64,000 nucleotides of DNA, taken from NCBI GenBank assembly GCA_945861895.1, contig CAMAWF010000005.1:32419-96418 (forward strand), given 5' to 3'. Below, piece by piece: positions 1 to 2,508 of the stretch; within the stretch, counting starts at the first letter, position 1; the number at the start of each line of letters is the position of its first letter. The notes under the pieces are model-generated. The model did not search any database and was not told the origin of the DNA. It was given only the letters and a program-made list of their open reading frames with translations. Made by a program: the position numbers and the translations under genes. This DNA comes from Rhizobium sp. Q54 (GTDB lineage: Bacteria > Pseudomonadota > Alphaproteobacteria > Rhizobiales > Xanthobacteraceae).

Positions 1-721
1 CGCGCTCGGCGGCGGCAAGCGCGGCTGCAAGCTCGCCCAGTTCGTCGTTGATGAAAATGCGCAGCGCCTGAAACGTGCGCGTCGCCGGATGAATGTCGCC
101 CGGCCGCGAGCGGACCACGCGCGCGACGATGTCGGCGAGCGCCCGCGTCGTGACGATCGGCGCGTCGGCGCGCGCCTTGACGATGGCGCGGGCAACCGCG
201 CGCGAATGCCGCTCTTCGCCGAGCGTGAAGATGATCGATGCAAGATCGCGCTCCGATGCCGTCGCGATCAAACCAGCCGCATCGACATCCGATTCGCCCA
301 TGCGCATGTCGAGCGGCCCGTCGAGGCGGAAGGAGAATCCACGCTCGGCCCGGTCGAGCTGCATCGAAGACACGCCGAGGTCGAGCACGACGCCATCGAC
401 GGCGGCGGCGCCGCACTCGCTCGCCGCGTTATCGAGATTGGAAAATCGATCCTCGATCAGCGTCAGCCGGCCTTGCGCGGCTTCCACCAGACCGGCGCCG
501 CGCGCGATGGCGCTCTGGTCGCGGTCGATGCCGATGACGTTTGCGTTCGCGGCATCGAGAATGCGCCGTGTATAGCCGCCGGCGCCGAATGTCGCGTCGA
601 TATAGATGCCGCCGTCTTTGACATCGAGGAAGTCGACCGCCGGGCGGCCGAGCACAGGAATATGTTGCGCCGGCCCACCAGCGACAGCCGCAAAGCCGTC
701 GCCGCCCGCCGTCATTCCCAT
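1..721 (-). CDS. rsmH: 16S rRNA (cytosine(1402)-N(4))-methyltransferase RsmH, C-terminus truncated by window edge
   Basis: Reverse-strand reading gives [55 protein letters not shown]...; start overlaps the 3' end of mraZ, the usual dcw order. Confidence 0.9.
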
Positions 722-1191
722 GCTCCATGCGCCGTTGGCGCCGCCGCCTGGGATTTCAATTGCTCCCGGAGCGCGCGCACCTTTTGGGTGGCCTGCGCGA
801 GCTCGGCTTGGAAGCGGCCGGGCTCCCAGAGCTGAAACTTGTGACCGAGCCAGACGAACAGAACCCGGTCGGCGATTCCGGCGTGGACCTTCAACGGCTC
901 GTTCAGCGTCACCCTGCCCTCGGCATCGAGCTTCAGGGTCGCGCTGGTGCCATAGAGAGCGGCCGAAAACTGCTCGCGTTCTTCCGAAAAGGGCGCAAAG
1001 CGCGCGATCACCGTTTCGATCTCCGACATCAGCGCGTTCCCCCCGGCATCGATCGCCGGGCGATCGAGCGCCGGATAGCAATAGAGGCCGTCGAAACCAT
1101 CGCGGCCGAGCACCGCACGAAAAGGAGCCGGTATCGATACGCGCCCCTTGGAGTCGAGCCGCAGCGTCGTGTTGGACACGAAGCGGTTCAT
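712..1191 (-). CDS. mraZ: Transcriptional regulator MraZ
   Basis: [32 protein letters not shown]...; likely start is the internal Met at 1191, not the ORF start at 1284; upstream of rsmH. Confidence 0.92.
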
Positions 1192-1325: not shown

Positions 1326-1497
1326 CGTCAACGGAAGCGCCGCCAGCCGCGCCCGGGGGCCCTCGGCCACGCTGGCAACACCTCATTAACGACCAGCCGG
1401 CTTAAGGATTGGTTGCCGCGAGGTCCGGCGGCGCCGCGCCATCGCCTTGTCGCAGAGACCGGACCGCAGAAACCGGTAACCCGTTCGGGTTGACTGG

Positions 1498-1521
1498 CTT
1501 GGCGTTATCCTTGGCGTTATC
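1498..1521. repeat. Tandem 12-bp repeat x2 (CTTGGCGTTATC)
   Basis: Two exact consecutive copies. Confidence 0.9.
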
Positions 1522-1585
1522 AATGAGTGAGTTAAGTTACGGCCCGGTCGGGGACAGTGTCGCGGGCCGGGTTATTATCTGGCGA

Positions 1586-1663
1586 GACTTGCGTTGAAGA
1601 CTTGCGTTAAAGACTTGCGTTAAAGACTTGCGTTAAAGACTTGCGTTGAAAACTTGCGTTAAA
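1586..1663. repeat. Tandem 13-bp repeat x6 (GACTTGCGTTAAA)
   Basis: Six contiguous units with only G/A variation (gacttgcgttgaa, gacttgcgttaaa x3, gacttgcgttgaa, aacttgcgttaaa). Confidence 0.95.
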
Positions 1664-1734: not shown

Positions 1735-2508
1735 ATGCCGCCCTTCCAGCCGGATTCATTCATCGTCTCCGATATCGTTGCCTCGCCGAACCACGACGAG
1801 CGCAAAGACGGCATGCCGCCCGATATGGTCGTGCTGCATTACACCGGAATGCAGGACGATCAGGCCGCGCTCGACCGGTTATGCTCGGCGGAAAGCAAAG
1901 TCTCGTCCCACTATGTCGTGTTCGCCGACGGCCGCATCGTGCAATGCGTGCCGGAAACGCGCCGCGCCTGGCATGCCGGCGTCTCGTCATGGGCCGGCGC
2001 AACCGACATCAACTCCCATTCGATCGGCATCGAGATCGCCAATCCCGGCCACGATTTCGACTATCCGGATTTTCCGCGGCGGCAGATCGCCGCAGTGATT
2101 ACGCTTTGCCGCGGCATTCTCGCCCGCCGACGCCAGATCCGCCCCGACCGGGTGCTGGCGCATTCCGATGTGGCCCCGGCGCGCAAGCAGGACCCCGGCG
2201 AGAAATTCCCCTGGGGGCTGTTGAGCGAGTCCGGCATCGGCCATTGGGTGCGGCCGGCGCCGCTGACGCTTGCAGGTCCGCAGCTGGCGCCTGGCGACAT
2301 GGGCGACGCGGTCACGCAACTGCAACGCAACCTGGCGGGTTACGGCTACGGCCTGGAAGCGACCGGCACCTACGATGAAGATACGCGCATTGTGGTCGCC
2401 GCGTTCCAGCGCCATTTCCGTCCCGGGCGCGTCGACGGCATCGCCGACGATTCCACCACGACAACGCTGCGCGCGCTGATCGAAACCCGGCCCACGCCGC
2501 TGGAATGA
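1735..2508 (+). CDS. N-acetylmuramoyl-L-alanine amidase (AmpD/amidase_2 family) with C-terminal peptidoglycan-binding domain
   Basis: VVLHYTGMQDDQAALDRLCSAESKVSSHYVVFADGRIVQCVPETRRAWHAG..SIGIEIANPGHD; C-terminal VTQLQRNLAGYGYGLEATGTYDEDTRIVVAAFQ. Confidence 0.88.
   Translation: MPPFQPDSFIVSDIVASPNHDERKDGMPPDMVVLHYTGMQDDQAALDRLCSAESKVSSHYVVFADGRIVQCVPETRRAWHAGVSSWAGATDINSHSIGIEIANPGHDFDYPDFPRRQIAAVITLCRGILARRRQIRPDRVLAHSDVAPARKQDPGEKFPWGLLSESGIGHWVRPAPLTLAGPQLAPGDMGDAVTQLQRNLAGYGYGLEATGTYDEDTRIVVAAFQRHFRPGRVDGIADDSTTTTLRALIETRPTPLE

Follow-up and report, generated by a model that had tools for sequence, protein, structure and literature searches.

The spacer between mraZ and an AmpD-type amidase gene in the window (the whole stretch of 64,000 nucleotides analyzed) carries six units of 13 bp at positions 1586 to 1663. 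The near-identical units lie head to tail well above chance expectation, and the array is real. We regard it as probably a lineage-private bacterial minisatellite and a candidate VNTR, neutral or weakly modulating in its effect and not a dedicated binding array. The features to which we refer throughout are as follows.

712 to 1191, minus strand: mraZ (Pfam MraZ, 5.1e-12; congener homologues 72 to 82% identical)
1473 to 1494, plus strand: remnant of a lost PRC-barrel gene, namely its 3' end (...CCGGTAACCCG.TCGGGTTGAC), from the comparison with the nearest relative, G021
1498 to 1521, plus strand: 12-bp pair, CTTGGCGTTATC twice, exact (TRF score 48)
1541 to 1573, plus strand: stem-loop, which probably served the lost PRC-barrel gene as terminator and has since decayed (fold; G021 alignment)
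1551 to 1578, plus strand: weak sigma-70-like site GGGACA-16-TATTAT, a candidate amidase promoter by consensus match only
1585 to 1663, plus strand: 13-bp tandem array (TRF, 6.1 copies, 93% matches, score 137; consensus GACTTGCGTTAAA)
1586 to 1598, plus strand: 13-bp unit 1, GACTTGCGTTGAA (pattern search)
1599 to 1611, 1612 to 1624 and 1625 to 1637, plus strand: 13-bp units 2, 3 and 4, GACTTGCGTTAAA (pattern search)
1638 to 1650, plus strand: 13-bp unit 5, GACTTGCGTTGAA (pattern search)
1651 to 1663, plus strand: 13-bp unit 6, AACTTGCGTTAAA (pattern search)
1735 to 2508, plus strand: AmpD-type N-acetylmuramoyl-L-alanine amidase with a PG_binding_1 domain (Pfam Amidase_2, 6.5e-37; PG_binding_1, 3.6e-13)

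Structure and setting of the 13-bp array

The gene order is rsmH (minus strand), mraZ (minus strand), the array region, the amidase gene, and the RNase P RNA gene (rnpB). The TRF score of the array, 137, compares with 69 for the second-highest in the window, and 60 sequences of 64 kb simulated with a first-order Markov model likewise reached 69 at most. An earlier note on this DNA had described six 13-bp units in the same orientation about 70 bp before the amidase start; we found them in one orientation throughout, with the amidase ATG (1735) 71 bp downstream of the array end. The TTAA end that it had attributed to most units is present in four of the six, as TTAA(A), while the other two end in TTGA(A).

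The array is noncoding, since its period is not divisible by 3 and every unit contains a stop on the plus strand, which rules out a coding repeat, and the units are contiguous, without unique spacers, which rules out a CRISPR; on both points we agree with the earlier note. A role as RNA structure was also ruled out because the array RNA was less structured than shuffles (z = +2.0). A small ORF (MSELSYGPVGDSVAGRVIIWRDLR and a stop, read by eye) terminates inside the first 13-bp unit, and the reverse complement of the unit, CGCAAGTCT, matches the rnpB gene of the window over 9 bp, which we judged to be a coincidence.

The two exact 12-bp units reported some 65 bp before the array are indeed there (1498 to 1521), with a gap of 64 bp. 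By itself this pair is not unusual and lies within chance, with about 1.7 arrays of TRF score 48 or more per simulated 64 kb. The core CTTG(G)CGTTA, claimed to be shared by the pair and the array, is present in both, but a match was obtained in 96 of 5,000 shuffles (P of ca. 0.02), so that the kinship would amount to a weak and weakly significant similarity.

The array had also been called iteron-like. Regular-period direct repeats in one orientation are what replication or partition iterons would look like. Typical plasmid iterons, however, have a period longer than 13 bp, there was no conservation across the genus (43 other genomes), and no rep or par gene was found among the flanking genes examined. 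Since the array lies on the chromosome among rsmH, mraZ, amidase, and rnpB, with no replication gene identified beside it, this reading is not supported, and we consider it extremely improbable.

Two known binding sites were discarded as the identity of the array. The MraZ operator consists of TGGG repeats at 10-bp spacing, and the array contains no TGGG. Four TGGG boxes with this exact spacing lie upstream of mraZ (1292 to 1325), which we take to be the textbook MraZ operator; they are direct repeats in the same intergenic region as the array but differ from it in motif and spacing. Of the congener loci, all 10 with an identified mraZ had at least two linked boxes, and those in which mraZ was not identified had none or no more than a single linked pair; this association suggests operator decay after mraZ loss. 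The CtrA binding site is TTAA-N7-TTAA, while the spacing in the array is TTAA-N9-TTAA. Elsewhere in the spacer, the window has TTAA-N12-TTAA at 1386 to 1405, and many congeners have TTAA-N7-TTAA (CtrA type) between mraZ and the amidase gene; a CtrA-type site, to judge from this comparison, seems to have decayed here.

History of the spacer within the genus

For the comparison within the genus, we searched 43 other genomes, one per species, and the unit doublet had no match in them when up to 3 mismatches were allowed. G021 is the nearest relative (82% identity in the amidase). Its homologous spacer contains a PRC-barrel gene, whose PRC domain was confirmed, with its own hairpin terminator ahead of the amidase gene, and it has neither a counterpart of the 13-bp array nor an apparent one of the small ORF. 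The window matches the region around the stop codon of this PRC-barrel gene at positions 1473 to 1494 (22 bp, 95% identity). The stem-loop at 1541 to 1573 (−22.4 kcal/mol in a 51-nucleotide fold; z = −3.0) aligns with the G021 terminator hairpin, has a degenerate T tail, and was not called by the terminator scanner. A PRC-barrel gene flanking the amidase gene has been lost in the window, and the array lies downstream of its remnant.

The congener loci that we examined vary, with the order mraZ-PRC-amidase in some and no PRC or no mraZ in others; the mraZ-amidase spacer is otherwise unconserved. Unrelated repeats occur in the same spacer at two loci, L024 (14 bp, 3.3 copies) and L042 (13 bp, 1.9 copies), and most congeners have none. 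The absence of the doublet from the genus genomes, the G021 spacer without an array, and the presence of other repeats at these two loci are as expected of rapid turnover, and they support the earlier suggestion of a tandem repeat.

We picture the origin of the minisatellite as follows. A 13-bp noncoding stretch between the lost PRC-barrel gene and the amidase gene would have been duplicated, and the duplicate would have grown by replication slippage to six copies, in the spacer DNA remaining after the gene loss. The GAA/AAA unit variants and the degenerate last copy fit slippage inside the array, and the copy number may be variable among strains. In favor of a minisatellite, tandem repeats with a non-triplet period do occur in congeners: stretches sampled from our genome (400 kb) and congeners (ca. 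2 Mb), 2.4 Mb in all, gave about 25 of them, mostly with two copies. What counts against it is that six copies are long for the genus, since among the unselected non-triplet arrays of this sample none reached four copies.

The sigma-70-like site (9 of 12 matches; 0.2 expected in shuffles) is the only promoter-like site between 1200 and 1800. It ends at 1578, seven bases ahead of the array, and since it does so, the array may sit in the amidase 5' untranslated region (UTR), if the candidate promoter is used. In that case, copy number could modestly tune amidase expression via leader length or transcript stability.

A second doublet and the possible recurrence of the core

The earlier note had proposed a search of the genome for other arrays of the unit, and this search returned a second 13-bp doublet, GACTTGCGCTAAA twice, at C124:1716-1740 of the same genome (G000; L014). 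Its unit is near identical to that of the array. The doublet lies between an HPt-domain gene, directly after whose stop codon it starts, and a 2Fe-2S ferredoxin gene; the congeners inspected, G021 among them, did not show it at the orthologous site. In 400 kb of the genome, we encountered no further exact non-triplet tandem repeat of at least 11 bases; therefore, chance would seldom produce two arrays whose units agree so closely. We estimate this chance to be of the order of 1e-4, assuming about ten such arrays per genome.

Alternatively, the array could be a cis-regulatory operator for a DNA-binding protein that recognizes CTTGCGTTA, binds along the direct repeats cooperatively, in the manner of BldC, and thereby regulates the amidase gene. 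The single orientation, the conserved core, and the location 71 bp upstream of the amidase ATG are consistent with an operator, as is the fact that the unit occurs again in an unrelated intergenic region. BldC provides the precedent, since it binds cooperatively, head to tail, to variable numbers of direct repeats (PMC6428758). Its operators resemble our array in the variable number of same-orientation direct repeats but have an AT-rich consensus, AATT(N3-4)(C/G) (PMC6428758). On the other hand, single units were not enriched, with 13 matches genome-wide at up to one mismatch, arrays included, versus 14 for the reversed pattern; no such repeats were found at congener amidase promoters; the second doublet is private too; and a 13-bp period does not hold sites on one helical face. 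The multisite protein-binding array put forward earlier has thus found no positive evidence, although the doublet at the second locus keeps it alive, and we consider an operator of this kind unlikely.

Extending the search beyond our genome, AGACTTGCG occurred twice at 12- to 14-bp spacing in 8 other genomes of the family, out of 398, versus 1 for the reversed control. The sites inspected were mostly intergenic and often shortly behind a stop codon. In the wider order, outside the family, the figures were 3 versus 2, and in viral contigs, they were 9 versus 9. Within the genus, the loci matching the 7-mer core were about equal to the control. Five units (GACTTGCGTTTAA/GACTTGCGCATAA) are present in G125, which belongs to a different genus of the family; this array begins at a stop codon, and its unit consists in part of the end of the gene itself. 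G019 has an exact eight-copy 13-bp array, GACTTGCGCCGAG/GAGGACTTGCGCC, at C1:1412367 onward (L241 from 12367), apparently between divergent genes and upstream of a gene resembling a flavin-dependent oxidoreductase.

The arrays might then belong to a dispersed family of short tandem repeats with a GACTTGCG core, spread or favored in this bacterial family and STRR-like in kind. The second doublet, the rarity of other repeats in the same genome, the G125 and G019 arrays, and the excess of tandem AGACTTGCG in family genomes all point that way. Against it, the spacer letters and the period (12 to 15) vary among loci, which together with the gene end contained in the G125 unit argues for a separate local origin each time. 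Moreover, the counts outside the family, in viral contigs, and for the 7-mer core were close to the control level, and 8 versus 1 gives a P of ca. 0.02 for a pattern chosen after seeing the data. We find a dispersed family rather unlikely. With same-unit arrays at two loci in the genome, 8 versus 1 in the family, and 3 versus 2 in the order, the recurrence of the core in the family is suggestive and does not establish an element. Still, the second doublet and the family recurrence of AGACTTGCG arrays are not predicted by pure random slippage.

Two contig ends of a Hymenobacter MAG (L057 and L058) carry tandem CGACTTGCGTTGAA arrays whose GC-rich flanks are alike, which hints at a dispersed repeat there. 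Doublets of CTTGCGYTRAA gave 21 matches across many phyla, with a roughly estimated tandem-duplication background of about 10, and a universal motif, considered at first, was set aside.

Known systems and biological meaning

As a minisatellite, the array has its nearest parallel in the clbR-clbB VNTR of Escherichia coli, an 8-bp unit (ACAGATAC) in 2 to 20 copies (PMC7364221). Both are short noncoding intergenic tandem arrays just upstream of a gene. The clbR array follows the start site and belongs to the 5' UTR (PMC7364221), as the 13-bp array may be too, judging from the candidate promoter. They differ in unit length and sequence, and the clbR VNTR has known copy-number variation and a roughly two-fold expression change, the reporter signal being about twice as high with 20 copies as with 5 (PMC7364221), while the 13-bp array is known from one genome. 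By analogy, a modest effect on expression, similar to that of clbR, is possible. The cyanobacterial STRR (short tandemly repeated repetitive) sequences, mentioned in PMC2670836, are likewise short-period intergenic tandem arrays, and a further parallel may be that similar units recur at several loci. Their units, however, are usually 7 bp long and able to form hairpins; the 13-bp array differs in its period, its lack of structure, and its recurrence at just two loci in the genome.

As an ordinary minisatellite, the array would carry little weight beyond possible use in strain typing and a possible part in fine-tuning a peptidoglycan amidase. A broader claim, which we hold to be quite improbable, is that this family of Alphaproteobacteria carries a recurrent, self-expanding intergenic tandem element with the core (A)GACTTGCG and a period of 12 to 15, often directly behind stop codons, kept by a core-binding protein or a core-specific duplication mechanism. 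If the family-wide recurrence of GACTTGCG is true, why independent arrays converge on one 8- to 9-bp core would become a testable question about how bacterial short tandem repeats arise or are selected.
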